In this document: positions 27,130 through 41,344 of the stretch, one piece after another | How positions within the stretch are numbered: position 1 is the first letter of the stretch | Layout of the letters: each line of letters begins with the position of its first letter | Assembly: GCF_000813745.1 (NCBI RefSeq) | Contig: NZ_JWLC01000005.1 | Span: 62,001-126,000 of the forward strand | Length of the DNA stretch: 64,000 nt | Direction: 5' to 3' | DNA from: Leisingera sp. ANG-M1 | GTDB lineage: Bacteria; Pseudomonadota; Alphaproteobacteria; Rhodobacterales; Rhodobacteraceae | Notes under the pieces: generated by a model | What the model saw: only the letters and a program-made list of their open reading frames with translations | Database searches by the model: none | What the model was told of the DNA's origin: nothing | Position numbers and translations under genes: made by a program

Positions 27130-28152
27130 ATGACGCCAAAACAAAAGGGTAACGTGGATATTGTTGCGGTTGCCAGGGCCGCCAAAGTGTCACCCTCCAC
27201 GGTGTCGCGCACCTTCAATCACCCCGATCTGGTGAGCCCGGCGACTCGCAAGAAGATCAATCGCGCGGTGCAGAAACTGGGCTATGTCAGGAACCGCGCC
27301 GCGCAGATGATGCATGGCAAACGATCGGGCACCATCGGGCTGGTGGTGCCGACCATCAACCACGCGATTTTTGCCGAGGTGATCCAGGCGTTTTCGGATG
27401 CCATCGACCAGGCCGGGTTTACATTGCTGCTGGCCTCGCACGGTTACGATCTGGACCGGGAATATGCGATGGTGCGCAAGCTGATGGAGCACCGGGTCGA
27501 CGGGGTGGCGCTGATCGGGCTGGAGCACTCCGACGCCACCGCCCGGCTGATCGCGCAGCAGGAGACGCCTGCGATGGCGATCTGGAACTACGCAGAGGAG
27601 TCGGAGCTGCCCTGCGTCGGTGCTGACAACAGGCAGGCGGGCCGGATGGCGGCTGAGCATCTGCTGCAGCTGGGGCACCGGGACATCGGCCTGATCTTCC
27701 CCGACACCCGCGGCAATGACCGGGCCCGCCACCGGCTGACTGCGGCAGTGGAAGCTCTTGAAACCCATGGCATTTCCGTGCCGGACGAACGGAAGTCCGA
27801 GGCGCCCTACAGTGTCTCCCAGGCCAAACAGGCCGCCCTGGAGCTGCTCTCCGGACCGTCGCGTCCAACGGCCTTGTTGTGCGGCAACGACGTGATCGCC
27901 CAGGGCGCCCTCTACGGGGCGCAGAAATGCGGACTGAAAGTGCCGCAGGACCTATCGATCATGGGGATCGGCGACTTCAAGGGCTCGGCAGATATCGAGC
28001 CGAGCCTCACCACGGTGCGGATCCCGGCGGAAACCATCGGCACGCTCGCAGGCGAGCGGTTCACCAGCTATATCACCTCGGAGGCGCCGGAGATGTTCAA
28101 ACTGTGCTGTGAGCTTGAACCTATCCTGCGCGGCACCACCGGACGGATTTGA
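27130..28152 (+). CDS. LacI-family regulator of the sulfoacetate genes
   Basis: 340 residues. The N-terminal LacI helix-turn-helix and hinge helix occupy about residues 8-62 (VDIVAVARAAKVSPSTVSRTFNHPDLVSPATRKKINRAVQKLGY). A periplasmic-binding-protein-like ligand domain follows (GLVVPTINHAIFAEVIQAFSDAI, LLCGNDVIAQGALYGAQKCG). GGAGGGGAG lies before ATG 27130. Divergent from the TTT-sauS-sauT operon with a consensus-like operator between. It probably represses the operon until sulfoacetate or a derived compound appears. It is followed at 14 bases by a ProC-like gene. Confidence 0.93.
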   Translation: MTPKQKGNVDIVAVARAAKVSPSTVSRTFNHPDLVSPATRKKINRAVQKLGYVRNRAAQMMHGKRSGTIGLVVPTINHAIFAEVIQAFSDAIDQAGFTLLLASHGYDLDREYAMVRKLMEHRVDGVALIGLEHSDATARLIAQQETPAMAIWNYAEESELPCVGADNRQAGRMAAEHLLQLGHRDIGLIFPDTRGNDRARHRLTAAVEALETHGISVPDERKSEAPYSVSQAKQAALELLSGPSRPTALLCGNDVIAQGALYGAQKCGLKVPQDLSIMGIGDFKGSADIEPSLTTVRIPAETIGTLAGERFTSYITSEAPEMFKLCCELEPILRGTTGRI

Positions 28153-28166
28153 GGAGGGCAGGGGGC

Positions 28167-28943
28167 ATGAAATTCGGCTTTATCGGAACCGGCGTGATCA
28201 CCGAGGCCATCGTGACCGGCCTGCTGAAGCAGGAGGGGGCAGCGCATGAGTTCCTGTTGTCCGAGCGCAGCCGCGCGGTTTCGGCACGGCTGGCGGTGGC
28301 TTCGGCTCAGGTGCAGATCGCCACGGATAATCAGGAGATTGCAGATCAGGCAGATGTTTTGTTCCTTGCGGTGCTGCCGCAGGTTGCGGAAGAGGTGCTG
28401 CAGCCATTGCAATTCAGGGCAGGCCAGAAAGTGGTCAGCCTGATTGCAACCGTGACCCATGAACGGCTGCGGGAATGGATCGGCGCGGATGTGGAGCTCA
28501 CCCGTGCCATCCCGCTGCCCGCAGTGGCTGAGCGGCGCGGGGTGACGGTGCTTTACCCGCAGGACCGGGTGCTATCCGGATTGTTTGCCGGGCTTGGAAC
28601 GGCTGTTACGGCAAAGACAGTTGAAGAATTTGACGCTTATGCCGCCGCCAGCGCCCTGATGGGCACCTATTTCGGCGTGCTTGAAACCGCAGCAGGCTGG
28701 CTGGCGGCTCAAGGCTGCTCCGAAGAGGGTGCGCAGGCCTATTTGACGGGTGTCTTCAGCGGGCTGGCAAAGCGGGCTGAGGCAGATGCCGGCAGCAGTT
28801 TCAGCGCCCTGCGTGAAGGGCACTCAACCCCGGGCGGGCTGAACGAGCAGCTGTTCCGGGTTTTTGACAGCGCAGGCGGCAGCAAGGCTTTGACTGAAGG
28901 GCTGGAGAGTGTCGCGGCCCGGCTGCAGGCGGCCAAATCATAG
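28167..28943 (+). CDS. ProC-like NAD(P)-binding oxidoreductase
   Basis: 258 residues, related to pyrroline-5-carboxylate reductase. The N-terminal Rossmann motif is MKFGFIGTGVITEAIVTGLL. A central LTRAIPLPAVAERRGVTVL stretch replaces the usual R-x-M-P-N-T-P, and a C-terminal helical dimer domain (LREGHSTPGGLNEQLFRVF) has the H-x-T-P-G-G-x-x-E form of this subgroup. It differs enough from the ProC at 2518 that another imine or carbonyl substrate is likely. GGAGGGCAGGGGG lies before ATG 28167. It is co-transcribed with the LacI regulator, an odd partner for sulfoacetate degradation. Confidence 0.82.
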   Translation: MKFGFIGTGVITEAIVTGLLKQEGAAHEFLLSERSRAVSARLAVASAQVQIATDNQEIADQADVLFLAVLPQVAEEVLQPLQFRAGQKVVSLIATVTHERLREWIGADVELTRAIPLPAVAERRGVTVLYPQDRVLSGLFAGLGTAVTAKTVEEFDAYAAASALMGTYFGVLETAAGWLAAQGCSEEGAQAYLTGVFSGLAKRAEADAGSSFSALREGHSTPGGLNEQLFRVFDSAGGSKALTEGLESVAARLQAAKS

Positions 28944-28949
28944 GCCTTT

Positions 28950-29837
28950 TCAGGCCGGCAGATCAGCGGACAGATCGCAGGACCGGATAAAGGTGCAGCA
29001 CTCCTCTGTCAGCACGGCAAAACGGCTGCGCTCTCGCTGATAGAGGTAAACCTCCCGCTTGTCCGGCAGATCGGCGATGGGGCGGAAGGCGGTGGTTTCC
29101 GGCATGAAACGGGCCACGGTCTGCGGCAGCACCGTCACCCATTTGCCGGTCCGCACCATGGTGATCAGCGAGTGGGTGTTGTGGATCGTTACATCGGCGG
29201 AGCCGCTGGCCGCGACAAAACGTTCGTTCCGGATCAGATCGCACAGCGCATTGCGCACAAAGGACGCGCCGGCGATGTCGGCGATCACCGGCGGATGCTT
29301 CTGCAGCACCAGAGGGTGGTCGGTGGAGCAGACCAGCCCGAAACGGTCCTCGAACAGCGGCACGGCCTTGACGCCGTTGACCGGGTGATAACCCGAGGCG
29401 ATGCCGATGTCCGCCTTGCCTTCGGCCAGGGCATCCAGAACCTGCTGGGTGTCGGTATCGCGCAGCTCGACCTTCAGGCCCGGGTAGCGTTCGGTCATAT
29501 GCTCCAGCACCGCGGGGAAGACCAGCGCCGCGACAGACGGCACCGAGACAATGCGGATCAGCCCGTGGATCGCCTCGGCCGCCATCTCGATGCTCTGCAC
29601 TGTTTGATCGAATTGGCGCACCTGTTTCTGGGCCAGTTCAAAGACTTGCTCCCCCAGCGGCGACAGCTGGTTCTTGCGCTCACCCTCGAACAGCTTCTTG
29701 CCCAGATGCTCCTCCATCTGTTTCAGCGTCATCGAGACAGCAGATTGGGTGCGGCCCAGCCTGTTGGCCGCTTCGGAGAGGTTGCCGGTCTGCGCCACGG
29801 TGCAGAAGGCGCGCAGCATTTCGATCTTCAAAGGCAT
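28950..29837 (-). CDS. LysR-family regulator
   Basis: 295 residues. The winged helix-turn-helix occupies residues about 3-62 (MLRAFCTVAQTGNLSEAANRLGRTQSAVSMTLKQMEEHLGKKLFEGERKNQLSPLG). A two-lobed periplasmic-binding-type effector domain follows. It is convergent with the ProC-like gene, 6 bases away, and divergent from the aldehyde dehydrogenase operon. Tandem TTCAGTTT repeats lie in the shared promoter. It most likely activates the catabolic operon at 29944-37782. Confidence 0.9.
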   Translation of the reverse strand: MPLKIEMLRAFCTVAQTGNLSEAANRLGRTQSAVSMTLKQMEEHLGKKLFEGERKNQLSPLGEQVFELAQKQVRQFDQTVQSIEMAAEAIHGLIRIVSVPSVAALVFPAVLEHMTERYPGLKVELRDTDTQQVLDALAEGKADIGIASGYHPVNGVKAVPLFEDRFGLVCSTDHPLVLQKHPPVIADIAGASFVRNALCDLIRNERFVAASGSADVTIHNTHSLITMVRTGKWVTVLPQTVARFMPETTAFRPIADLPDKREVYLYQRERSRFAVLTEECCTFIRSCDLSADLPA

Positions 29838-29840
29838 GGC

Positions 29841-29869
29841 TTCAGTTTTGTTGAAGTTTCTTTCAGTTT
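29841..29869 (+). promoter_or_regulatory. Tandem TTCAGTTT repeats, probable LysR binding region
   Basis: TTCAGTTT at 29841-29848 and again at 29862-29869, exactly 21 bp (two helical turns) apart, both followed by TTGA-like bases. They sit just upstream of the LysR start on one side and about 75 bp before the aldehyde dehydrogenase start on the other. Confidence 0.45.
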
Positions 29870-29943
29870 ATTGAGTTTGACTGATGTGTCCCGCGGAGTC
29901 CATCCTGCTGCAAACCTGAATTTCAGCATCTGGGGCCCGTACC

Positions 29944-31389
29944 GTGACCAAACTGAACCTGATTGCCGGCGAATGGCTGGCTGGCGAAAGCGAAATCGAA
30001 AACCGCAACCCGTCGGATCTGAGCGATCTGGTCGGCATGTTTGCCCAGGCCAGCAGCGACCAGCTGGAAGCGACACTGGATCAGGCGCAGATCGCACAGC
30101 GCGAATGGGCAGCCTACGGTCTGGAGCGCAGGCAGGCGGTTCTGATGAACATCGGCAACGAGCTGATGGCGCGCGCCGAAGAGCTGGGCACACTTCTCTC
30201 CCGCGAGGAAGGCAAGCCGCTGGCTGAGGGCAAAGGTGAAGTCTATCGGGCAGGACAGTTCTTTACCTACTACGCCGCCGAATGCCTGCGCCAGATCGGT
30301 GAAAACGCCGACTCCGTGCGCCCGGACATCGAAGTCGACGTGCGGCGCGAGGCGGTGGGCGTTGTCGCCATCATCTCGCCCTGGAACTTCCCGACCGCAA
30401 CCGCGTCCTGGAAAATCGCGCCGGCGCTGTGCTACGGCAACGCCGTTGTCTGGAAGCCCGCCAACATCACCCCGGCGTCTGCTGTTGCCCTGACCGAGAT
30501 CATCGAACGCCAGGATATCCCCAAAGGTCTGTTCTCGCTGGTCATGGGTTCCGGCCGCTCGATCGGCCAGCGTCTGGTCGAAAGCCCCAAGGTGAACGCC
30601 ATTTCCTTCACCGGCTCGGTGCCGGTGGGCAAGGGGATTGCCGCCGCAGCCATCCAGAACCTGACCAAGGTGCAAATGGAGATGGGCTCCAAGAACGCGC
30701 TGGCCGTCATGGACGACGCCGATCTGGATCTGGCTGTTTCCCTGGCGCTGGGCGGCGCCTTTGGCGGCACCGGACAGAAATGCACCGCCTCCTCCCGGCT
30801 CGTGGTCCACGCGGCCGTGCACGACGCCTTTGTTGAGAAACTGGTGGCAGGCGCACAGGCGATGAAAGTGGGCCACGCGCTGGAAGCAGGCGTGCAGATG
30901 GGTCCCGTGGTCAGCGGGCAGCAGCTGAACGAAAACCTGGCTTATGTGGACCTGGGCACATCCGAAGGCGCGGAACTGGCCTGCGGCGGCCAGCGCCTGG
31001 AGATGCCGACCGAAGGCTTCTACATGTCGCCGGGCGTGTTCCTGAACACCACCAACGACATGCGCATCAACCGCGAGGAAATGTTCGCGCCGCTGACCTC
31101 GGTGATCAAGGTCGGCAGCTATGACGAAGCGCTGTCTGTAGTGAACGACACCAACTTCGGGCTGACCTCGGGCATCGTCACCCAGTCGCTGGCGCGCGCT
31201 ACCCACTTCCGCCGCAACGCGCGCACCGGTGTGGTGACCGTCAACCTGCCGACCGCAGGCACCGACTACCACGTGCCCTTCGGCGGCCGCGGCGACAGCT
31301 CCTATGGCCCGCGCGAGCAAGGCAAGGCGGCGGCGGAATTCTACACCACCGTCAAGACCGCCTACATCAGCGCCGGCAAGCCGGTCTGA
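29944..31389 (+). CDS. NAD(P)-dependent aldehyde dehydrogenase (semialdehyde dehydrogenase-like)
   Basis: 481 residues, oxidises an aldehyde to a carboxylate. Motifs include PWNFPTATASWKIAPALCYGNAVVWKPA, the NAD-site FTGS near residue 222, the catalytic glutamate in MEMGSKNA, and the catalytic cysteine C280 in GTGQKCTASSR. It resembles alpha-ketoglutaric semialdehyde and succinate semialdehyde dehydrogenases. Start is GTG at 29944. It heads a same-strand run with the M19-like, 562-residue, DUF3726, Ldh-like and BCCT genes, so it probably oxidises a chain-opened semialdehyde. A 167-base gap with several inverted repeats separates it from the next gene, which could have its own promoter. Confidence 0.9.
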   Translation: MTKLNLIAGEWLAGESEIENRNPSDLSDLVGMFAQASSDQLEATLDQAQIAQREWAAYGLERRQAVLMNIGNELMARAEELGTLLSREEGKPLAEGKGEVYRAGQFFTYYAAECLRQIGENADSVRPDIEVDVRREAVGVVAIISPWNFPTATASWKIAPALCYGNAVVWKPANITPASAVALTEIIERQDIPKGLFSLVMGSGRSIGQRLVESPKVNAISFTGSVPVGKGIAAAAIQNLTKVQMEMGSKNALAVMDDADLDLAVSLALGGAFGGTGQKCTASSRLVVHAAVHDAFVEKLVAGAQAMKVGHALEAGVQMGPVVSGQQLNENLAYVDLGTSEGAELACGGQRLEMPTEGFYMSPGVFLNTTNDMRINREEMFAPLTSVIKVGSYDEALSVVNDTNFGLTSGIVTQSLARATHFRRNARTGVVTVNLPTAGTDYHVPFGGRGDSSYGPREQGKAAAEFYTTVKTAYISAGKPV

Positions 31390-31556
31390 TCAAGGAACCC
31401 TGGCAGCGCCGTGCAGCCGGCCTGCCAGTTTACCGAAGCGCCCGTCCTGCCTCTCTCCGTCAAACCGGAGGTTTGCCTTTGGCAAAACGCGGCGGGCGCC
31501 ACTTGCCCTTTGCCTGAAAGTGGCCGGGCGCTGGATTTGAAAACCGAGGTGCATGA

Positions 31557-32540
31557 ATGACCGGATACCGTATCGACTGCCTGCAATATGCCAACTGGTC
31601 CGAGAAGATCTTCCGCCAGCTGCGGACAGGCAACGTGGACGCGATCCATGTCACCATTGCCTATCACGAGAACTTCCGCGAGACGGTTCTGAATTTCGAG
31701 AAGTGGAACCGCTGGTTCGAGCAGTACCCGGACCTGATCATGAAGGGGCAGTGGGCCTCGGACATCGACAAGGCCCGCGAAACGGGGCGCACCGCGGTGT
31801 TCTTTGGCTTCCAGAATCCTTCGCCGATGGAAGACGACATCGGCCTGGTCGAGATCCTGCACACCCTGGGTGCACGGTTTATGCAGCTCACCTACAACAA
31901 CCAGTCGCTGCTGGCGACCGGCTGCTACGAGGCAGAGGATCCCGGCATCACCCGCATGGGCAAGCAGGTGATCAAGGAGATGAACCGGGTCGGCCTGATT
32001 GTGGACATGAGCCATTCCGCCGACCGCTCCACCATCGAGGCGGCCGAGATCTCCACCCGCCCGATCGCCATCACCCATGCCAACCCGCATGAGTGGTCGC
32101 CGGCCCTGCGCAACAAGAAAGACGATGTGCTGCGCGCGGTCACCGGCCATGGCGGCATGCTGGGTTTCTCGGTCTATCCGCACCACCTCAAGGACAAGTC
32201 AGACTGCACTCTGCAGAGCTTCTGCGAGATGATTGCCCGTACTGCTGAAAAGTACGGGACCGGGCACCTCGGCATCGGCACCGACCTTTGCCAGGACCAG
32301 CCCGACAGCGTCGTGGAATGGATGCGGGTCGGCCGCTGGAGCAAGGAAATCGACTACGGCGAAGGATCAGCCGCCGCTCCGGGTTTTCCGGAAATGCCCA
32401 GCTGGTTCCAGGACAACCGCGACTTTGGAAACATCGAAGAGGGCCTTCGCGCGACGGGCATGAACGATGAGGAAGTCAGCGGCATCATGGGCGGGAACTG
32501 GTACCGGTTCTTTGCCGAAAACTTTGGCCCCAAAGGATAG
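31557..32540 (+). CDS. M19 (membrane dipeptidase-like) family protein with altered metal site
   Basis: 327 residues with the renal-dipeptidase TIM barrel. In classical M19 enzymes an N-terminal H-x-D plus a glutamate bind one zinc, and two later histidines the other. Here the N-terminus reads RIDCLQYAN, with L9 and Y11 where H and D belong, and the glutamate position is Q86 in FFGFQNP. The later ligands remain: H153 in DMSHS, H174 in THAN and D243 in GTDL. The enzyme is thus unlikely to be an ordinary dinuclear dipeptidase. From memory, a similar GFQN-type relative sits beside dimethylglycine demethylase genes in Pseudomonas. A betaine-pathway role fits the BCCT transporter downstream. Confidence 0.87.
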   Translation: MTGYRIDCLQYANWSEKIFRQLRTGNVDAIHVTIAYHENFRETVLNFEKWNRWFEQYPDLIMKGQWASDIDKARETGRTAVFFGFQNPSPMEDDIGLVEILHTLGARFMQLTYNNQSLLATGCYEAEDPGITRMGKQVIKEMNRVGLIVDMSHSADRSTIEAAEISTRPIAITHANPHEWSPALRNKKDDVLRAVTGHGGMLGFSVYPHHLKDKSDCTLQSFCEMIARTAEKYGTGHLGIGTDLCQDQPDSVVEWMRVGRWSKEIDYGEGSAAAPGFPEMPSWFQDNRDFGNIEEGLRATGMNDEEVSGIMGGNWYRFFAENFGPKG

Positions 32541-32545
32541 GCTTT

Positions 32546-34234
32546 ATGGAAACAACCGCGCAGACAACGATATCAAGACGGGACCCGGCGCAGGTGATGC
32601 GCCTCAGCCGGCTCGGCTCTTTGCATCAGTGCCGCCTCAGCTTCATGCGGGTGCTGACACGGCGCATGGCCGAGGAGAACTGGAGCTTCTCCCGGCCCAA
32701 GTTTGATATCGATGCCAAGGGTGTTGGTGTTGCGGTCTATACCGCCACCGGCCCCGCGCGGTCTTATTCCCTCGTGGCCTTTGCCCATGATCTGCCGCCC
32801 GAGATGCGCTCGGACCGGGTGATCGCCACCGCCTGGGACGCAACCTTTGCCCTGTTCGACGGGGTGCCCACTGAGGCTGACATTGAGCGGCTGTCGAAGA
32901 ACGTACCCTACCAGGAAGCGGGCCGGGTCAGCGGCAGCGAGCTGTCGCTGTCGCGGGCCAACCGTTCGGTGCGGCTGTGGGCGCATGTGGTGGAGTGCCT
33001 TTCTGAAGGGCGCCAGCCCGACCCGGCGCAGATCGAAAGCGTCGGCTACCTGATGCGCACCACCGCGGTCTACGGCTCCGGCAAGTTCGGCGCCGCGGAC
33101 CGGGACATCATCGCGGACCGCGCAGAGATGAAGGGTCCGTTCCAGGCCGAGATGCTGTCGGTTTTCCTGACACGCGCCTTTGTCCGCGACCTGGTTGAGC
33201 ATATGGCCCGCGCCAGAGGCGGCGATCAGGCGGCGCGGATGGCACCCGAGACTGCCCGGCAGCTGGGCATCGGCAACTCCACCGGCTTGGGCATGGCGCC
33301 CTACATCGTTAACCACCCGGTGCTGTTCAACAACTGGATTGCCGCGCGGGAAGAAGCGATTGCCCGGGTGCGCTCGGTCGAGACCGCCACGGGCGAAGAG
33401 GCCGCCTGTTTCCGCAGGATGCTGCGGCGGAGCGAGATTTCCGCCGCGCGCTGGCGCTCGGAGCACCCGGTGCAGGTGGAAAAACTGGCGGCGCTGGCCA
33501 AGGATCTGGAGGCGCTGGCGGCTTGGGTGGCCGCGGATGATTTGCTGAATGACCGCCCCTGGGACCGGCTGATCCGCTGGAGCGAAGCGGAATTGAGCCT
33601 GGAGGGGCAGGAGCTGGCCGCCTCGCTCATTTTGGAGCCTTATGGGGAACTGGTGGATGAGCTGGCGCCCTCAATGGCCGACCATAACAAGGACGCCTTC
33701 GTAATTGACGGTTCCATGCCGGTGTCCAAGCTGCGCGGCCTGATCGCCGAAAGTTTCGGCTGGGCGCTGGATCTGGACTGGGACGCGCGCGAGAACTGTG
33801 CCCGCGCCTGGTATGTCTCGGAAGAGAAGCTGGAGCCGCGCATGGGCGAGCGCTTTGAGGAGCCGATCTCGGAATACGAACAGCCGCTGGCCCCGGCACG
33901 CGATGCAGCTCTTGCCCATGCGGCGCTGGCGGACTGGGACGCGGACGAGCTCATTGCCGGCTTCCTGCTGCGTCACCCCGAACACCGCCACACCGTGCGC
34001 CGGGCGCAGATGAGCCAGGTGGCACCCTATGGCGAGATCCGCAGCAACACCATCAGCGACCGCGTGCTGCCGATCGACATGCTGCGGGCAAAGCTGTCGT
34101 TCTTCGGCGCCACCCATTTCGACCCGCGCTCGGACCGCTGGGTGCGGATCTGCATGTATGCGGGCGCGCCTTACCCGGAGGGCCTGACCACCGCCAACTC
34201 CGACCTGTGGGTGTATCCGGAGGCAGAGCAATGA
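32546..34234 (+). CDS. Unrecognised 562-residue protein of the betaine-like operon
   Basis: I do not recognise a domain. The protein has no signal peptide or clear membrane helix and is rich in Arg, Glu and Ala, so it looks cytoplasmic and mostly helical. A conserved-looking patch NSTGLGMAPYIVNHPVLFNNWIAAREEAIARV lies near residue 245. The C-terminal SNTISDRVLPIDMLRAKLSFFGATHFDPRSDRWVRICMYAGAPYPEGLTTANSDLWVYP has the density of a functional site. AAAGGA precedes ATG 32546. It starts 5 bases after the M19-like stop, and its own stop overlaps the DUF3726 gene, so it belongs to the same pathway or complex. Its role is unknown. Confidence 0.85.
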   Translation: METTAQTTISRRDPAQVMRLSRLGSLHQCRLSFMRVLTRRMAEENWSFSRPKFDIDAKGVGVAVYTATGPARSYSLVAFAHDLPPEMRSDRVIATAWDATFALFDGVPTEADIERLSKNVPYQEAGRVSGSELSLSRANRSVRLWAHVVECLSEGRQPDPAQIESVGYLMRTTAVYGSGKFGAADRDIIADRAEMKGPFQAEMLSVFLTRAFVRDLVEHMARARGGDQAARMAPETARQLGIGNSTGLGMAPYIVNHPVLFNNWIAAREEAIARVRSVETATGEEAACFRRMLRRSEISAARWRSEHPVQVEKLAALAKDLEALAAWVAADDLLNDRPWDRLIRWSEAELSLEGQELAASLILEPYGELVDELAPSMADHNKDAFVIDGSMPVSKLRGLIAESFGWALDLDWDARENCARAWYVSEEKLEPRMGERFEEPISEYEQPLAPARDAALAHAALADWDADELIAGFLLRHPEHRHTVRRAQMSQVAPYGEIRSNTISDRVLPIDMLRAKLSFFGATHFDPRSDRWVRICMYAGAPYPEGLTTANSDLWVYPEAEQ

Positions 34235-34860
34235 GCTTTTCCCTGAACGAAGTGGAAGCCACCGCCAAACGCGCCGCCCGCGGTGCCGGCTATGACTGGG
34301 GACTGGCCGAGGAAGCCTCAAAAGCCACCCGCTGGCTTTGCGCACAGGGGCTCGATGGTGCAGCCGTGCTGGCCGGGCTGTTGGAAGGCGGCTTTGCCGC
34401 AAACCTGCCTGCCCATGTGCCGCAAAACCTGAGCGGCAGCTGGCAGGCTGATGCGCTGCTCTGCCCGCTGGCAACCGGCGCCGCCCTTTCGGATTGCGCT
34501 ATGCGCCTGCAACAGGCGCCGCAGGCCATGGGGCCGATTGCGCAGCCTGCGTTCATCCTGCCCTTTGCTGCCTTGGCCGCACGCCGTCTTGGCGCCTGTG
34601 TCACCATCGAAGGCGAGGGCTTTCAAGCCGTTACCGACGGCAGCGTACTGCAGGTCGAAGGCACTCTGCCGGATACCGCTGCCAGCCTGACCATACGCGC
34701 AGAGGGCAGCCTGCCTGCTTCCGCTCCGCTCGCCACCCGCGCTGAACCGGAGGAGGCGGGTTGGGCCGTGCTCAACCGTTTTGCCCATAAAACCTATGCT
34801 CCGGCGACCGAGGAGTCGCGCCTCTTGGGCGCGGGTGCCGGGCTGTCGGACAACGACTGA
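34231..34860 (+). CDS. DUF3726 family protein
   Basis: 209 residues, start ATG 34231 overlapping the preceding stop (ATGA). The N-terminus MSFSLNEVEATAKRAARGAGYDWGLAEEASKATRWLCAQGLDG matches the DUF3726 pattern. The family function is not known to me. No signal peptide or membrane helices. It is followed after 12 bases by an Ldh-family oxidoreductase. Tight coupling on both sides suggests a subunit or accessory protein of the 562-residue gene product. Confidence 0.85.
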   Translation: MSFSLNEVEATAKRAARGAGYDWGLAEEASKATRWLCAQGLDGAAVLAGLLEGGFAANLPAHVPQNLSGSWQADALLCPLATGAALSDCAMRLQQAPQAMGPIAQPAFILPFAALAARRLGACVTIEGEGFQAVTDGSVLQVEGTLPDTAASLTIRAEGSLPASAPLATRAEPEEAGWAVLNRFAHKTYAPATEESRLLGAGAGLSDND

Positions 34861-34872
34861 AGAGGCCCCGAT

Positions 34873-35883
34873 ATGACCGAAACCAAAACCATGACCCTCG
34901 CCGAGATCGAGGACCTGTCCTTCCGCGCCCTGGTGGCAGCAGGCACGTCCGAGGCCAATGCCCGGCCGCTGGCCGTTGCCACTGCGGCGACCGAAGCCGA
35001 CGGTGTGGCCAGCCACGGCCTGGCCTATATCCCGATTTATGCCGAGCACGTGCAGTGCGGCAAAGTGGATGGTCAGGCGGCTCCGGTGCTGACCCGCCCG
35101 CGTCCCGGCGTTGTGGCGGTGGATGCGGCCACTGGCTTTGCCCATGCCGCCATCGATATGGGCTTTGAGGCCCTGACCGAAGCAGCGCGCGCACAGGGCG
35201 TTGCGGTTCTGGCGATCCGCAACAGCTATAACTGCGGCGTTCTGGGCTATCACACCGCCCGCCTGGCCCGCGCCGGGCTGGTGGGTCTCGGCTTCACCAA
35301 TGCGCCGGCTTCGATCGCACCGTCGGGCGGCAAAAAGCCGGTTGTCGGCACCAACCCGTTCTCGATTGCAGTGCCGGGTGCGGATGGCGAGCCGGAGCTG
35401 CTGATCGACCAGAGCGCCAGCACCATCGCCAAAAGCGAAGTCATGAAGCACGCCCGCGAAGGCAAGGAAATCCCGCTGGGCTGGGCGTTGGATGCTGATG
35501 GCAACCCGACCACCGACCCCAACGCTGGCCTCAAAGGCTCGATGGCGCCGTCGGGCGGCTACAAGGGCGTCGGTGTCGCGCTGCTCACCGAAATCATGGC
35601 TGCGGCGCTGACCGGCGCAAAGCTCGGCATCAACGCTTCGCCCTTCTCGGGCACGGCAGGCGGCCCGCCGAAAACCGGCCAAATGTTCATCGCAATCGAC
35701 CCGGGAGCGACATCAGATGACGCTTTTGGTGCCGGATTGGCCGGGATCGTGGAAGCGGTGCGCGGCCAGGCTGGCGCACACCTGCCCGGAGACGGGCGGC
35801 GGGCAAAGCGCTTGCAGGCCCGTCAAGAAGGCGTCGCGGTCAACGTGGCAACGCTGCAAAAGATCGAGGCCCTGCTGGGCTGA
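34873..35883 (+). CDS. Ldh-family (malate/L-lactate/ureidoglycolate dehydrogenase-type) oxidoreductase
   Basis: NAD(P)-dependent oxidoreductase of 336 residues with the non-Rossmann Ldh fold. The catalytic histidine lies in DGVASHGLAYIP. The segment NSYNCGVLGYHTARLA stands where relatives have a histidine-glycine pair, and NAPASIAPSGGKKPVVGTNPFSIAVPG is typical. The family includes delta-1-piperideine/pyrroline-2-carboxylate reductases that reduce cyclic imines, as well as hydroxy-acid dehydrogenases. Beside a BCCT transporter and a semialdehyde dehydrogenase, imine reduction or N-alkyl amino acid chemistry is the attractive reading, but it is inference. Confidence 0.88.
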   Translation: MTETKTMTLAEIEDLSFRALVAAGTSEANARPLAVATAATEADGVASHGLAYIPIYAEHVQCGKVDGQAAPVLTRPRPGVVAVDAATGFAHAAIDMGFEALTEAARAQGVAVLAIRNSYNCGVLGYHTARLARAGLVGLGFTNAPASIAPSGGKKPVVGTNPFSIAVPGADGEPELLIDQSASTIAKSEVMKHAREGKEIPLGWALDADGNPTTDPNAGLKGSMAPSGGYKGVGVALLTEIMAAALTGAKLGINASPFSGTAGGPPKTGQMFIAIDPGATSDDAFGAGLAGIVEAVRGQAGAHLPGDGRRAKRLQARQEGVAVNVATLQKIEALLG

Positions 35884-35891
35884 CGCCAATC

Positions 35892-35935
35892 CCGGCGGTT
35901 CCGCAAGCCGCCGGAAACCCCGCACCTCGGTGCGG
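35892..35935 (+). other. Two tandem hairpins between Ldh-like and BCCT genes
   Basis: CCGGCGG 35892-35898 pairs with CCGCCGG 35908-35914, and CCGCAC 35920-35925 pairs with GTGCGG 35930-35935 over a CTCG loop. No T-run follows, so attenuation or mRNA stabilisation is more likely than full termination. Confidence 0.5.
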
Positions 35936-35958
35936 CACGTGCGAATGGGAGGAAACGC

Positions 35959-37782
35959 ATGTCAGTAAAACAACCGTTTACCGACTTGGAGATTAAGACG
36001 TCTCCAAGCGGTTTTTATCAAGGGCACAGCCTTGAGATTGCCTTGCTCAGCAAGGGGATCATGGTCGCCTTGGTTCTCTGGGCACTGGTCTGGCCGGCAA
36101 ACGCCACGGGCGTGCTGGGCAGCCTCAACTGGCGTATCCTTGAGGATTTCAACGCCTTCTACATCATCATCGTAGGTTTCTTCGCCTTTTTCCTGTTTGT
36201 GGTCGCCGCATTGCCGCAAACCGGTAAGCGGATCATGGGGGGACCGGGCCAAGGCAAAGAGTTCTCGGACTTTTCCTGGTTCTCGATGATGTTCGGCGCC
36301 GGTCTGGGTGTCGGCCTGATGGTTTTTGCAACCGCCGAGCCGCTGGGCCTGTGGGGTTCCAACCCTGTGGTTCTGGCACAGGAAGTCGTTGGCAACACCG
36401 AAGAAGCGGTGCAGTCGGGCTTCCGCTATACTTTCCTGCACTATGGTTTCCACGCCTGGGCAATTTATGTGGTGACCGGCCTGTCGCTGGCTTACTACGC
36501 CTATACCCGTGACATGCCGCTGACCATCCGCACCGCGCTGACCCCGCTGTTCGGCAAGCTGATGAACGGCTTCCTGGGCCATGTCGTGGACGTGCTGGGC
36601 GTTGTTGCAACCATCCTGGGCGTCTCCGTCACCATCGGCTTCGGCGTGTCCCAGTTTGTGGACGGCGTCTATGCTATCACCGGCATGGAATGGATGATGG
36701 ACATGAGCGGCGATGCGCCTGCTCCGGGAACTGTTGGCCTGCTGTCCGGCCTGTTCGCAATTATGGGCCTGTCGATCATTTCGGCTGTATCCGGCGTTGG
36801 CCGCGGCGTGAAGTATCTGTCGAACCTGAACCTGGTTCTGTCGATCATCCTGCTGCTGACCTTCGTGGTTTTCGGCTCTTTCATGTTCGCCATGACCACC
36901 TATGCCTCGGCATTTGTTGACTACATCCTGCACTTTGTCTCGCTGAGCTTCGGCGCTTACGGTCCGCAGTCCGCAGCTGACTTTGCAGCAGCCCTTCCGG
37001 CAGACGCCGCACCCTACGCAGATGCTCTGCGCGGCGGCGCAACCAATGCCTGGGGGTCCTTCGACGGCTTCAAATCCGGCCTGGAAGGCGAAGCTGCTGC
37101 CCTGTCCGACGACGTTCTGGCGGCAACCTATGCAGCTGGTGAAGCACAGCGACAGTTCGGCTGGCAGGCTGGCTGGACCACCTTCTACTGGGCTTGGTGG
37201 ATCGCGTTCTCGCCCTTCGTTGGCCTGTTCCTGGCGCGCATTTCCCGCGGTCGTTCTGTGCGTGAGTTCATCGTGGGCTGCGTGTTCGCACCGGCGCTGG
37301 TCTGCTTTGCCTGGATGACCATCCTGGGCGGCACCGCCATCGATCTGGAACTGACCGGCGGCGCAGAAGGCGCAATCATCGGCGCATCGAACACCGCCAA
37401 GCTGTTCGTGACCCTGGGCCAGATGATCGACGGCGGCCTGCTGTCCGGCATCACCATCATGTGTGTTGTGCTGATCATGACCTTCCTGGTCACCTCGGCT
37501 GACTCCGGCATCCTGGTGATGAACACCATCATGTCCGGCGGCGACCAGAACATCGGCAACAAGCACAAGATCGTTTGGGGCCTGATCCTGACCGCGGTGA
37601 TCGGCACCCTGCTGTTCGCAGGCAAGCAGAACGGCGGAGCCGATCCGATGGAAGCGCTGAAAAGCGCGATGATCATCGGCGCGCTGCCGTTCACCATGGT
37701 GATGGGCCTGATGTGCGTGTCCCTGGCCAAAGCGCTGTTCCGTGACGGACAGCGTGAAAAGGCTGCAGCTCCGGCTGAATAA
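35959..37782 (+). CDS. BCCT-family betaine/carnitine/choline transporter
   Basis: Secondary transporter for zwitterionic quaternary ammonium compounds, 607 residues with about 12 helices. The helix-8 signature is present as WTTFYWAWWIAFSPFVGLFLARISRGR, and GLGVGLMVFATAEPLGLWG represents the second family motif. An extra loop of roughly 60 residues (around 340-395, alanine-rich) sits between helices 7 and 8. GGGAGG precedes ATG 35959. Last gene of the 29944-37782 block and followed by a strong terminator. Its presence is the main clue that the operon handles an N-methylated, betaine-type substrate. Confidence 0.93.
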   Translation: MSVKQPFTDLEIKTSPSGFYQGHSLEIALLSKGIMVALVLWALVWPANATGVLGSLNWRILEDFNAFYIIIVGFFAFFLFVVAALPQTGKRIMGGPGQGKEFSDFSWFSMMFGAGLGVGLMVFATAEPLGLWGSNPVVLAQEVVGNTEEAVQSGFRYTFLHYGFHAWAIYVVTGLSLAYYAYTRDMPLTIRTALTPLFGKLMNGFLGHVVDVLGVVATILGVSVTIGFGVSQFVDGVYAITGMEWMMDMSGDAPAPGTVGLLSGLFAIMGLSIISAVSGVGRGVKYLSNLNLVLSIILLLTFVVFGSFMFAMTTYASAFVDYILHFVSLSFGAYGPQSAADFAAALPADAAPYADALRGGATNAWGSFDGFKSGLEGEAAALSDDVLAATYAAGEAQRQFGWQAGWTTFYWAWWIAFSPFVGLFLARISRGRSVREFIVGCVFAPALVCFAWMTILGGTAIDLELTGGAEGAIIGASNTAKLFVTLGQMIDGGLLSGITIMCVVLIMTFLVTSADSGILVMNTIMSGGDQNIGNKHKIVWGLILTAVIGTLLFAGKQNGGADPMEALKSAMIIGALPFTMVMGLMCVSLAKALFRDGQREKAAAPAE

Positions 37783-37808
37783 AACACGGCTTTCCTTGTA
37801 AAGCGCAG

Positions 37809-37838
37809 GGCCGGGGGGCGAATGTCCCCCGGCCTTTT
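37809..37838 (+). terminator. Terminator of the BCCT operon
   Basis: GGCCGGGGG 37809-37817 pairs perfectly with CCCCCGGCC 37826-37834 around 8 bases, followed by TTTT. It abuts the stop codon of the converging LysR gene. Confidence 0.85.
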
Positions 37839-38770
37839 CAATTGGTATTGGCGGTGCTGCCGTCCTGGGCCTCCAGCTTGAACCATTTCAGCATCCGTTC
37901 CAGCGTGCCGCTGCTTTTGCCCAGCGGGCGGTGCTGCAGGAAATAGCTGTGCGCGCGGTCCGACACCGTTGGCCCCAGCCGCAGCACCTCGCCGCGGGCC
38001 AGCGCGTCATCCACGATGCCGGTCCAGCCCAGCCCGACGCCTTCGCCGCGGCGCACGGATTGCAGCAGGAAAGGGTAAGCGTCGAATTCGGCCGAGGGGT
38101 CAAGCCGCGGCGGCGTCAGACCGGTCAGGATGAACCAGCTCTCCCAGGTCAGAAAATTCGAGGCGCCGGGATCGAAGTGCAGAAACAGCTCCGGCGGCAG
38201 GCTTGAGATGCCGAATGCGGCCTCGGGGTGTTCCCTCAGGAACTCGGGACTGCAGATCGGGAAGGTCTCCGCCGGGATCAGCGGGAAATAGGGGCGGTCT
38301 GGCATCCGCGACGGGTCCCAGACCACCGCCGCATCCAGGCGCGACAGGTCGATGTCGCCCAGCTGGTCGGTGGTCACCACCCGCACACGGCTGCCGCCAA
38401 GGTGTGTGCGCAGGTCCGAGTAGCGCGGCATCAGCCATTGATCGGCAAATCCGAAGGTGCAGGCCAAGGTCACCTCGCCCGGATCGGGGGCGGCCAGTAC
38501 CTCGCTCCAGGCCTGATCCACATGGCCCAGTCCCAGCGCCACCGCATCGGCTAGTCTTGCGGCATTGGCAGTGGGCGTGATCCGGTTGTTGTTGCGCTCA
38601 AACAGCGGCTGGCGCAGCCGGTCCTCCAGCGTTGCGATATGGCGCGAGACCGCGGGTTGGCTGAGGCCCAGTTCGGTAGCGGCGCGTGAGAGACTGGCAT
38701 GGCGCACAGCGACCTCCAGCACCATCAGGGCATTCAGCGAACCGGCAGTGGGGCGTATCATGAGTTCCAT
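37838..38770 (-). CDS. LysR-family regulator (GcvA-like subgroup)
   Basis: 310 residues. The helix-turn-helix lies at about 12-70 (SLNALMVLEVAVRHASLSRAATELGLSQPAVSRHIATLEDRLRQPLFERNNN), with a substrate domain after it. The form resembles GcvA and regulators of choline or glycine betaine genes. It is divergent from the tandem CoA-transferase gene and convergent with the BCCT operon, so it could control either. The divergent CoA-transferase is the more usual target. Confidence 0.9.
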   Translation of the reverse strand: MELMIRPTAGSLNALMVLEVAVRHASLSRAATELGLSQPAVSRHIATLEDRLRQPLFERNNNRITPTANAARLADAVALGLGHVDQAWSEVLAAPDPGEVTLACTFGFADQWLMPRYSDLRTHLGGSRVRVVTTDQLGDIDLSRLDAAVVWDPSRMPDRPYFPLIPAETFPICSPEFLREHPEAAFGISSLPPELFLHFDPGASNFLTWESWFILTGLTPPRLDPSAEFDAYPFLLQSVRRGEGVGLGWTGIVDDALARGEVLRLGPTVSDRAHSYFLQHRPLGKSSGTLERMLKWFKLEAQDGSTANTN

Positions 38771-38842
38771 CAGGAAATATTAGGGACTGCATATGTTTTT
38801 GACCAGTGGATATTGCCGGGGGCCAAGATAATCTGTGGCGGA

Positions 38843-41344
38843 ATGACCTATCCAATGGACAACAGGCGAGACTATCCCATGCCGCAGCGCCCCCTTTCCC
38901 ACATTCGCGTTCTCGACTTCGGCCATTACCTGGCCGGCCCCCTGACCGGCATGATGCTGGCTGACATGGGCGCCGAGGTGATCCGCATCACCCCGCCCGG
39001 CGGCACCGGCTTTGACGGCCCGGCCTTCGACATGCTGTCGCGGGGCAAGCAGACACTGGAGCTGGACCTGAAATCGGACGAGGGCCGCGCCACCGCCATC
39101 GAACTGGCCAAACGCGCAGATGTGGTGATCGAGAACTTCCGCCCCGGTGTAATGAGCCGCCTCGGCCTGGGGCCCGAGGTGCTGCGCGCCGCCAATGATC
39201 AGCTGGTTTATCTTTCGATGCCGGGCTTTGCCTCCACTGATGCGGAACTGGCGGACCTGCCGGCCTGGGAGGCGGTCATCGCGGCCTACACCGGCCAGTT
39301 CACCGACATGGGGCTGAACCGCCGCCTGATGGGCATCAACCCGTCCTTCTCGCCGCTGACTCTGGCCTCGGCCTATGGCGCGAGCTTCGGCGCCATGTCG
39401 GTGCTCTTTGCCTTGAACGCGCGGGAACAGAACGGCGGCGACCACATCGAAGTGCCGCTGGCCGCCGCGCTGCTGGAAGGGCTGGTCTATAACTGCGAGC
39501 AGATCGAAGACTACCCCGAACGCTACAAATCCCCGCGCGAGGTGGAGCTGGACCGGCGCGAGGCCGAAGGCCTACCGATGAACCTGGCGTTTGAGGAGCT
39601 GTCGGAATTCCTCGACCCGTTCTACCGCACCTACACCTGCGCCGATGGGCGCGGTTTCTATGTGGTGAGCGGCTCGGTCGCCACCCACCCGCGCCGGGTG
39701 CTGGAGACTTTGGGACTGAAGGAGCTGGCCGACGAGCTGCCGGATTTCTCCGCCTATCTGGACACCAAGGACTGGCCCGCGGAATGGTCGATGCGCAATT
39801 ACCCGGTGGGGCCGTCCGACCGCGAACGCGTGTCCACGGCGATGAAACAGGCCTTCCTCACTAAGCCCTCGCATGAATGGGAAGAGCTGTTCGGCACCGC
39901 CAAGGCGCCCGCTACCGCACAGCGCTTCACCAAGGAATGGCTGCATGACCCGCATGCTTTGGCCTCCGGGCTGATCCTGCAGGTAGAGGACGCCAAACAC
40001 GGGCTGATGCAGCAAATGGGCAATGTGGCCTGGCTGTCCGGCGATGAGGCAGCCGCGCAGAAATCCAGCGCGGCGGAGGCGGATCTGGCGGCGCTGCTGG
40101 CGGAACCTGAACGCGGCGGCGCCAGCAGCCGGGAGGGCTGGGGCTGGCTCGACGGGCTCAAGGTTGTCGACCTCACCAATGTGATCGCCGGGCCGACCAT
40201 CGGCTCGACCCTGGCCCGCTATGGTGCCGAGCTGACCCTAGTGCAGGCGGTGGAGCCGTCGGTGGACCCTTGGAACACTGTTGTCTTCGGCATCCACGCG
40301 CAGCGCGGCAAGGAGAGCATCCTGCTGAACCTGCGCACCGATGAAGGGCAGGAGGCGCTGGCACGGCTGATTGCGGATGCGGATGTCGTCACCATGAACG
40401 GCACCGACGAGCAGCGCGACAAACTTGGCCTTTCGCCGGAGCGGCTGGCCGCGATCAACCCGCGCCTGATCCTGGTGCAGCTGGATGCCTTTGGCGGCCC
40501 GATGCGCGGACCGAAATCCGACCACCTCGGCTATGATGACCTGGCGCAGGCGGCCACCGGCGTGATGGTGCGTTTTGGCGGCGGCATGGAGACGCCCGAG
40601 GAACACGCCCATTTCGGCACCATTGACGTGCTCACAGGCTTCTGCGCCTGTGTAGCGCTCGGCGGCGCGCTGCTGCGGCTCAAGGAAACCGGCAAGGGCG
40701 GCGTGGCGCGCGCTTCGCTGGCAGGCGCCGGCAACCTGATCCAGGCGCAGTTCATGTATGACCACGAGGACCGGACGCCCTTCGACGAACCCTCGGGCCG
40801 GGGCGCCTTGGGATGGGGGCCGTTCTACCACTGCTACCAGGCAGCCGACGCCTGGTTCTTCTTCGCCGCCCCCACCGAGCGCGGCGCTGCGCTGGCGCGG
40901 GTGCCGGAACTGGCGGATCTGGCGGAACTGCCGGAAGAGCAATTGCATGCGGCCCTGTCAGACCGTTTTGCGGCACGGCCGCTTGCCCATTGGCGTGCAG
41001 CCTTCGCCGAAAGCTCAGCTGCCGCGGTGCCGCTGTCCTCGCTGCACGAAACCCGCGACGCGGCGCTGCAGCTGGAAAGCGAAGGCAGCATCGATCTGTC
41101 TGAGGCCACTTTCCGGGTGATCCGCCACGACCAGCACCCGATGGGCCGCTGGTGCGATTTGGTGGCGCCCAATGCGGTGCGCCCGCAGGCAGGCCGCATC
41201 AGCATCCCCGGCCCGGCGCCGAAATACGGCGAGCACACACGGGCAATCCTGGCACGGCTGGGCTATTCCGAAGACCAGGCCAATGCGATGATCGCCAGCG
41301 GCTCTGCAGGCGAAAGCTGGTCGGAGAAATACATGCCTGAATGA
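38843..41344 (+). CDS. Tandem family III (CaiB/BaiF) CoA-transferase
   Basis: About 833 residues containing two CaiB-type units. The first runs from HIRVLDFGHYLAGPLTGMMLADMGAEVIRI, the second from LDGLKVVDLTNVIAGPTIGSTLARYGAELTLV at about residue 435. The catalytic aspartate of family III enzymes appears in the second unit (HFGTIDVLTGF, about D595). The matching region of the first unit reads LTLASAYGASFGAM, without the aspartate. The C-terminal unit is therefore the likely catalytic one. Starts at 38843, 38855 or 38879 are all possible. It transfers CoA between carboxylic acids; a carnitine- or betaine-type acid fits the neighbourhood but is unproven. Confidence 0.88.
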   Translation: MTYPMDNRRDYPMPQRPLSHIRVLDFGHYLAGPLTGMMLADMGAEVIRITPPGGTGFDGPAFDMLSRGKQTLELDLKSDEGRATAIELAKRADVVIENFRPGVMSRLGLGPEVLRAANDQLVYLSMPGFASTDAELADLPAWEAVIAAYTGQFTDMGLNRRLMGINPSFSPLTLASAYGASFGAMSVLFALNAREQNGGDHIEVPLAAALLEGLVYNCEQIEDYPERYKSPREVELDRREAEGLPMNLAFEELSEFLDPFYRTYTCADGRGFYVVSGSVATHPRRVLETLGLKELADELPDFSAYLDTKDWPAEWSMRNYPVGPSDRERVSTAMKQAFLTKPSHEWEELFGTAKAPATAQRFTKEWLHDPHALASGLILQVEDAKHGLMQQMGNVAWLSGDEAAAQKSSAAEADLAALLAEPERGGASSREGWGWLDGLKVVDLTNVIAGPTIGSTLARYGAELTLVQAVEPSVDPWNTVVFGIHAQRGKESILLNLRTDEGQEALARLIADADVVTMNGTDEQRDKLGLSPERLAAINPRLILVQLDAFGGPMRGPKSDHLGYDDLAQAATGVMVRFGGGMETPEEHAHFGTIDVLTGFCACVALGGALLRLKETGKGGVARASLAGAGNLIQAQFMYDHEDRTPFDEPSGRGALGWGPFYHCYQAADAWFFFAAPTERGAALARVPELADLAELPEEQLHAALSDRFAARPLAHWRAAFAESSAAAVPLSSLHETRDAALQLESEGSIDLSEATFRVIRHDQHPMGRWCDLVAPNAVRPQAGRISIPGPAPKYGEHTRAILARLGYSEDQANAMIASGSAGESWSEKYMPE

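Follow-up and report, generated by a model that had tools for sequence, protein, structure and literature searches.

A 64,000-nucleotide stretch of the Leisingera sp. ANG-M1 genome (contig NZ_JWLC01000005.1, positions 62,001 to 126,000; the whole stretch is called the window here) contains what is probably an operon for the breakdown of an N-methylated pyridine carboxylate through the pathway proposed below, with homarine (N-methylpicolinate) as the most likely substrate. This reading is based on the adjacency and co-occurrence of mgd genes, which encode N-methylglutamate dehydrogenase (Mgd), on the kinship of the operon's Ldh2-family enzyme to piperideine-2-carboxylate reductase, on carriers of betaine type, and on the exchange of Ldh2 for a RidA-like protein among relatives. 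We are more confident still that the substrate is homarine or a close N-methylpyridinium carboxylate and that its breakdown ends in N-methylglutamate. As we infer for the identity of its genes, the operon is probably the one behind the homarine pathway published in 2026. The operon and its regulator comprise the following features:

28950..29837, minus strand: LysR-type regulator (Pfam HTH_1 and LysR_substrate), divergent from the operon
29838..29943: LysR/ALDH intergenic region of 106 bp, presumed regulatory
29944..31389, plus strand: aldehyde dehydrogenase (ALDH; Pfam, 497 bits), proposed 5-semialdehyde dehydrogenase
31557..32540, plus strand: M19-like amidohydrolase (Pfam, 239 bits), proposed C-N (formyl or amide) hydrolase
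32546..34234, plus strand: U562, an orphan protein of 562 amino acids, proposed catalytic core of ring opening
34231..34860, plus strand: DUF3726 protein (Pfam, 72.5 bits), proposed partner subunit of U562
34873..35883, plus strand: Ldh2-family oxidoreductase (Pfam Ldh_2, 308 bits), proposed N-methyl ketimine reductase forming N-methylglutamate
35959..37782, plus strand: BCCT transporter (Pfam, 469 bits), proposed importer

The first-pass annotation had described these genes as a LysR regulator, a semialdehyde-type dehydrogenase, an M19-like protein, a large unrecognised protein, DUF3726, an Ldh and a BCCT carrier, and all are present at these coordinates with Pfam support as listed. Gaps measure 167 bp between ALDH and M19, 5 bp between M19 and U562, 12 bp between DUF3726 and Ldh2, and 75 bp between Ldh2 and BCCT, and U562 and DUF3726 overlap by 4 bp. 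The DUF3726 ATG at 34231 overlaps the U562 stop as ATGA, and because the same overlap is seen in most relatives, DUF3726 probably starts there rather than at the GTG at 34207. No sigma-70-like site was found in 28800-38000, promoter and terminator scans gave hits at chance level only, and an Rfam scan of the window returned no match at the gathering threshold.

Conservation of the gene block

A synteny comparison, which the first-pass annotation had proposed as a check, was made across 131 loci: 80 from named genomes, 40 picked by their position in family genomes, and 11 others. The block is conserved as a unit of LysR, ALDH, M19, U562, DUF3726 and Ldh2, a nearby RidA-like gene standing in for Ldh2 in some loci. 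Gene order is mostly preserved among relatives, and LysR homologues often adjoin the ALDH gene. Flanks of at least 4.5 kb on both sides are present in 115 of the loci, and the 16 with shorter flanks were dropped from the counts. Within 3.5 kb of U562 and on the same strand, an M19 homologue occurs in 110/115 loci (it is absent in three and on the opposite strand in two) and DUF3726 in 108/115, the remaining seven having no match.

The U562 stop codon forms part of an NTGA motif in 72 of 78 loci. In 70 of these 78 loci the reading frame that begins at the motif encodes DUF3726, and in 56 of the 70 the motif is ATGA. Because the DUF3726 start overlaps the U562 stop in most loci, this arrangement suggests that translation of the two genes is coupled and that their products form a complex.

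U562 was found in 21/21 genomes of the genus. Samples of the family and of the class yielded it in 91 of 198 genomes (a count that takes in the distant subfamily) and in 53 of 385, respectively. In a scan of named genomes, at least 582 of the 591 pattern matches listed were confirmed, and the best 80 were used. These best 80 come mostly from Rhodobacteraceae/Roseobacteraceae, the closest from Leisingera (87%), and also include Roseibium, Pseudovibrio, SAR116 (L139 and L148, by name), Granulosicoccus and Rhizobiaceae. Seven contigs from metagenome-assembled genomes labelled Acidimicrobiales (L115, L121, L123, L126, L137, L140 and L143) carry a U562 that is 59-63% identical to that of the window; either the gene was transferred to actinobacteria or the contigs are alphaproteobacterial and were mis-binned.

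Linkage to N-methylglutamate dehydrogenase and variation among relatives

Genes of sarcosine-oxidase type adjoin the operon in six loci (L080, L091, L096, L100, L107 and L224), and we read them as mgdABCD. All four stand beside the operon in Ruegeria sp. TM1040, where they are annotated as sarcosine-oxidase genes, and in L096 and L100; in L080, L091 and L107, fewer were recognised or they lie only partly on the stretch. The order in TM1040 is sarcosine-oxidase-like beta-delta-alpha-gamma, a helix-turn-helix regulator, LysR, ALDH, M19, BCCT, U562, DUF3726 and Ldh, and L091 has a GbdR-like AraC gene at the position matching the TM1040 helix-turn-helix gene, between mgd and LysR. The tmaR gene of R. 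pomeroyi, for an AraC regulator, is described as adjoining mgdABCD, and Mgd is reported to act in homarine catabolism (PMC13390433, citing the 2026 study of the homarine pathway in environmental bacteria, Nat Microbiol 11:1531-1546, doi 10.1038/s41564-026-02313-7). The link of Mgd to the operon described here is one of position and co-occurrence, that is, linkage rather than flux.

The genome from which the window comes has seven SoxA-like (sarcosine oxidase alpha) paralogues, on contigs C4, C12, C18, C19, C20, C22 and C66, with differing neighbours. Given these seven paralogues, the label mgd was distrusted when based on identity alone, and gene neighbourhood and a tree were used instead. An MgdC match of at least 40% identity is held by 8 of the 131 loci, and the L096 proteins score above the cut-offs of the SoxA and SoxB models and below those of SoxD and SoxG. 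The roseobacter alpha subunits encoded beside the operon form one clade (100/99) with an MgdC copy from Ruegeria arenilitoris (L187) that is separated from gmaS-mgsABC by about 2.5 kb containing a regulator and an AraC-like gene. This clade also includes the C4 copy of the window's own genome, which has gmaS-mgsABC about 20 kb away on the same contig, while a SoxA-like paralogue near a serine hydroxymethyltransferase (SHMT) gene falls outside it. The names gmaS, mgs and SHMT were assigned from TIGR03105, gene order and sequence.

At the level of whole genomes, MgdC of the close type (at least 1,262 bits, a cut of our own; lower-scoring, unlisted matches fall below this group) occurs in 41 of 91 family genomes with U562 and in 20 of 107 without it (p 1e-4; n=198), a cross-table that merges both U562 subfamilies. 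It is present in 16 of the 25 genomes listed as Ldh2-type and in none of the five listed as RidA-type, a comparison that omits one genome with one copy of each (G186) and the U562 genomes of undefined type. In two genomes of 1.2 and 1.3 Mb whose stretches have 28-30% GC and which look like SAR11, an M19-U562-DUF3726 core and an mgd-like gene stand no more than about 10 kb apart; L226 holds only a fragment of that gene, at the edge of the stretch. The links in L225 and L229 are weaker, because their MgdC proteins fall outside the roseobacter clade in the tree.

Relatives also differ in the enzyme that follows the core. Among the flanked loci, 66 have a close ALDH (at least 50% identity; ALDH-type loci); of these, 33 carry Ldh2, 16 a RidA-like gene, 17 neither and none both (Fisher 2.7e-6, relatedness ignored). 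Presence here means presence on the fetched stretch, and the exclusion is therefore local. The other 49 flanked loci, which have no close ALDH, divide into 10 with Ldh2, two with RidA and 37 with neither, again with none holding both. On the best U562 tree the RidA label changes seven times, at least five of them on well supported branches. We regard this mutual exclusion as the strongest internal evidence for an imine or enamine intermediate.

Carriers vary as well. A betaine-type carrier of one of the three types sought lies near 42 of the 66 ALDH-type loci: 13 have a BCCT of the window's type, 18 one of a second BCCT subfamily, 10 a ProV-type ABC transporter and one both BCCT types. The second-subfamily gene of Ruegeria sp. 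TM1040 sits between M19 and U562.

In a second U562 subfamily (about 43-50% identity), little of the block is retained beyond M19, U562 and a short DUF3726-like gene. Nine loci (L047, L049, L056-L058, L060 and L062-L064) hold such paralogues, 45-49% identical, with M19 and the short DUF3726-like gene, and their neighbours were read by eye as YcjX-like, TruA or IleRS. We considered whether these copies belong to the same operon and rejected this, as they have no close ALDH, Ldh2 or BCCT match. More distant still is a U562 relative on Sinorhizobium meliloti pSymB (31%; L237, 11220-23166), in the order IclR, U562', hypothetical, dipeptidase, ABC transporter, aminotransferase, succinate-semialdehyde dehydrogenase, RidA and RidA, where the same core probably acts on another substrate. 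One paper lists the S. meliloti tag smb20383, which may belong to this locus, with genes annotated for histidine and spermidine/putrescine transport.

Proteins of the proposed ring-opening core and the enzymes around it

U562, which the first-pass annotation could not place, is matched by no model of Pfam or NCBIfam at E 0.01, and a comparison with PDB sequences gave no convincing match. Its structure was predicted with good scores (pLDDT 89.4, pTM 0.91). In fold searches with a model of the whole chain, Foldseek matched nothing at E <=0.001 and the highest VIA Z was 4.2; a part of the protein may still have a known fold. Several helix-grip (PR-10/START-like) proteins are among the low-scoring rows and are too weak to use. 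An alignment of 14 diverse members has 39 invariant residues, ten of them Arg and none His or Cys; 13 of the members share His219 and His257. A metal site is therefore not evident from the sequences, though one may be present.

DUF3726 was modelled with high confidence (pLDDT 93.9). Its 15 best fold rows are all Ldh2-family proteins (VIA Z 10.2-12.4, 162-186 residues aligned, root-mean-square deviation 3.3-4.0), a likeness also found by Foldseek. The chain has 209 residues against 313-361 in the Ldh2 targets, the NAD-binding domain is missing, and the sequence contains no SHG motif. DUF3726 is thus predicted to share the core fold of the type-2 malate/lactate dehydrogenases (Ldh2) in a form that lacks the NAD-binding domain; without this domain and SHG, it falls outside the ordinary NAD-dependent Ldh2 enzymes. 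No mention of the name DUF3726 was found in the literature searched.

M19 membrane dipeptidases have a two-metal site formed by H-x-D, a Glu and two His. In the M19-like proteins, H-x-D occurs within the first 35 residues in 0/85 aligned rows (window included), Gln86 replaces the aligned Glu of the dipeptidases in 85/85, and His153, His174, Arg185 and Asp243 are kept in 85/85. The first-pass observation that the N-terminal metal ligands are missing thus extends to the whole alignment, and, as judged from sequence, the gene is homologous to M19 and lacks the full metal site. Its closest PDB entry is 2i5g, an 'amidohydrolase' (E 4.7e-54), which might be the P. aeruginosa protein of the pepD cluster described next. 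Vibrio natriegens and Pseudomonas aeruginosa have clusters of pepD, a hypothetical gene and dgcAB (dimethylglycine dehydrogenase), which likewise place a dipeptidase-like gene and an unknown protein beside genes for demethylation of an N-methyl amino acid; U562 and DUF3726 are not mentioned in the passage describing them (PMC12093977).

For ALDH, the best NCBIfam models are alpha-ketoglutarate-semialdehyde and 2,5-dioxovalerate dehydrogenases (477 and 476 bits, below the cut-offs of 770 and 750), and the best PDB relatives are betaine-aldehyde dehydrogenases. The closest PDB relative of Ldh2, which matches its family over the full length, is 1wtj (DpkA, delta1-piperideine-2-carboxylate reductase / N-methyl-L-amino acid dehydrogenase), which scores 193 bits where the second-best entry scores 139; Ldh2 and 1wtj align over residues 4-336, SHG motif included. 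The kinship to cyclic-imine reductases proposed in the first-pass annotation is borne out by this nearest solved relative, and the protein is likely, with slightly less assurance than we give the operon's overall reading, to be an imine reductase, which in contrast to DpkA would here take part in the breakdown of an N-methylpyridinium compound. The closest PDB relative of the BCCT protein is the trimethylamine transporter 8zw8.

Homarine and alternative substrates

In the pathway that we propose, BCCT would import homarine and the U562/DUF3726 pair, with M19, would open the ring between C5 and C6. M19 would then hydrolyse a C-N bond, taking C6 off the nitrogen as formate and leaving 5-oxo-2-(methylamino/imino)pentanoate, whose aldehyde ALDH would oxidise to 2-(methylimino)glutarate. 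Ldh2 would reduce the C=N bond to give N-methylglutamate, to be demethylated by Mgd to glutamate; in the RidA variant, the imine would instead be hydrolysed to 2-oxoglutarate and methylamine. The formulas balance as homarine C7H7NO2 + 3 H2O + O = N-methylglutamate C6H11NO4 + formate CH2O2. Because ALDH and Ldh2 cancel in this arithmetic, one net two-electron oxidation is left to be supplied by the U562/DUF3726/M19 core or by some protein that the operon does not encode.

These three proteins are candidates for an undescribed ring-opening enzyme. The fuller proposal is one to which we give slightly less than an even chance: that they form a new enzyme opening N-heteroaromatic rings, in which U562 has a new fold, DUF3726 is its partner and the M19 protein has an altered metal site, with an enamine or imine as product, two interchangeable exits for it (reduction by Ldh2 followed by Mgd, or hydrolysis by RidA) and a rhizobial version of the core acting on another substrate. 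The detailed roles assigned to U562, DUF3726 and M19 are more tentative than that.

Several observations weigh against the homarine pathway. Pfam recognises no oxidase or oxygenase among the operon genes. Close-type MgdC is missing from 9 of the 25 Ldh2-type genomes, neither Ldh2 nor RidA lies near 17 of the 66 ALDH-type loci, and 24 of the 66 have none of the three carrier types nearby. An independent-pairs test of Ldh2 and RidA never found them changing in the same direction, the pairs being too few to reach significance (median p 0.25). Genes of GmaS type (over the TIGR03105 cut-off), sought in 20 genomes, occur in 2/4 of RidA type, 5/11 of Ldh2 type and 3/5 others, and are thus not enriched where release of methylamine is predicted; as a control, 1 of 14 named genomes passed the same cut-off. 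Upstream of the operon in Phaeobacter inhibens stand genes for an amidohydrolase and for an ABC transporter whose substrate is not stated. Finally, the distant U562 relatives in soil rhizobia have other accessory genes, and the core is therefore not specific to homarine.

The genes that flank the operon are as follows:

28149-28943, plus strand: ProC-like protein that passes the NCBIfam PRK06476 cut-off (pyrroline-5-carboxylate reductase); its gene converges with that of LysR
37838-38770, minus strand: second LysR gene, downstream
38699-41344, plus strand: open reading frame of 881 amino acids, a single protein that matches CoA-transferase family III in two stretches (Pfam)

The listed start of the 881-residue frame overlaps the opposite-strand LysR gene, and the true start is probably further in. 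A second LysR gene and a CoA-transferase family III gene also adjoin the operon in Leisingera daeponensis (L072). We rejected the ProC-like gene as a member of the operon, since a search of 161 related loci, about 30 of them too short to reach that position, gave no match to it (E 1e-5); a Shinella locus (L234) has a different gene, annotated as P5C-reductase-like.

The alternative that survives best is another N-methylated heterocycle ending in N-methylglutamate, such as proline betaine (stachydrine), degraded via N-methylproline and N-methylglutamate semialdehyde. ALDH and the Mgd linkage would fit such a route, BCCT and ProXWV carriers move proline betaine in other bacteria, and the ProC-like gene stands next door in the window. 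However, that gene is the one without a match in the related loci, Pfam finds no gene like those for proline dehydrogenase, a Rieske demethylase or dimethylglycine dehydrogenase in the operon, and the route would need neither an imine reductase of Ldh2 type nor RidA; we consider it unlikely. Degradation of trigonelline (N-methylnicotinate), homarine's isomer, is less likely again. The same carrier types and N-methyl chemistry would serve it, and the wider family is present in plant-associated rhizobia, but the Mgd link would then have no explanation. In addition, the tgn route of Acinetobacter uses a two-component flavin oxygenase to reach succinate semialdehyde, methylamine and formate, and Pfam finds no such family in the operon or elsewhere among the ten open reading frames at 28149-41344. 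An operon for peptides (the example of an unrelated substrate that the first-pass annotation had named as its possible undoing) or for N-acyl amino acids, with a real dipeptidase, agrees with the public label of the M19 gene as 'membrane dipeptidase' and with the upstream genes of P. inhibens, and is very improbable in view of the M19 proteins without H-x-D and the aligned Glu in 85/85 and of carriers that, where one of the types sought is nearby (42/66), are BCCT or ProV-type.

The homarine reading thus keeps much of the first-pass proposal, which had the operon open and oxidise an N-methylated, perhaps cyclic, osmolyte with homarine as one candidate: carriers, Ldh2 kinship and mgd linkage all favour it, and the identity of the substrate is indicated indirectly. 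The description of the operon as little-described no longer holds if it is identical to that of the homarine pathway published in 2026. That study is said to name an operon homABCDER in Rhodobacterales, SAR116 and SAR11. The five conserved genes and LysR found here would agree with that name in number. Carriers in Rhodobacterales and SAR116 were found here by name, while a link to SAR11 comes only through the SAR11-like low-GC genomes. Here the transporter varies and RidA can replace Ldh2, which we state as differences from the homarine system. The gene content of the homarine operon was not found in the literature passages searched, a search that was not exhaustive.

Homarine is a plankton osmolyte, which Ruegeria pomeroyi drew down to no more than 2% of the starting amount within 10 h (PMC12817926). 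The operon described here exists, is conserved and most likely belongs to the homarine kind published in 2026, which leaves the finding as first posed only modestly new. If the block is the homarine operon, U562 would be a candidate marker gene for it in the 91 of 198 family genomes that hold it, and DUF3726 gains a predicted fold and a partner. If the proposed pathway is true, the question of what opens a stable aromatic N-methylpyridinium ring where no oxygenase is recognised, and how, is narrowed to three named proteins. The exchange of Ldh2 for RidA, if true, would tell strains that route the nitrogen to glutamate from those that route it to methylamine. The lasting interest of the operon lies in this unexplained ring-opening core and its two exchangeable exits.

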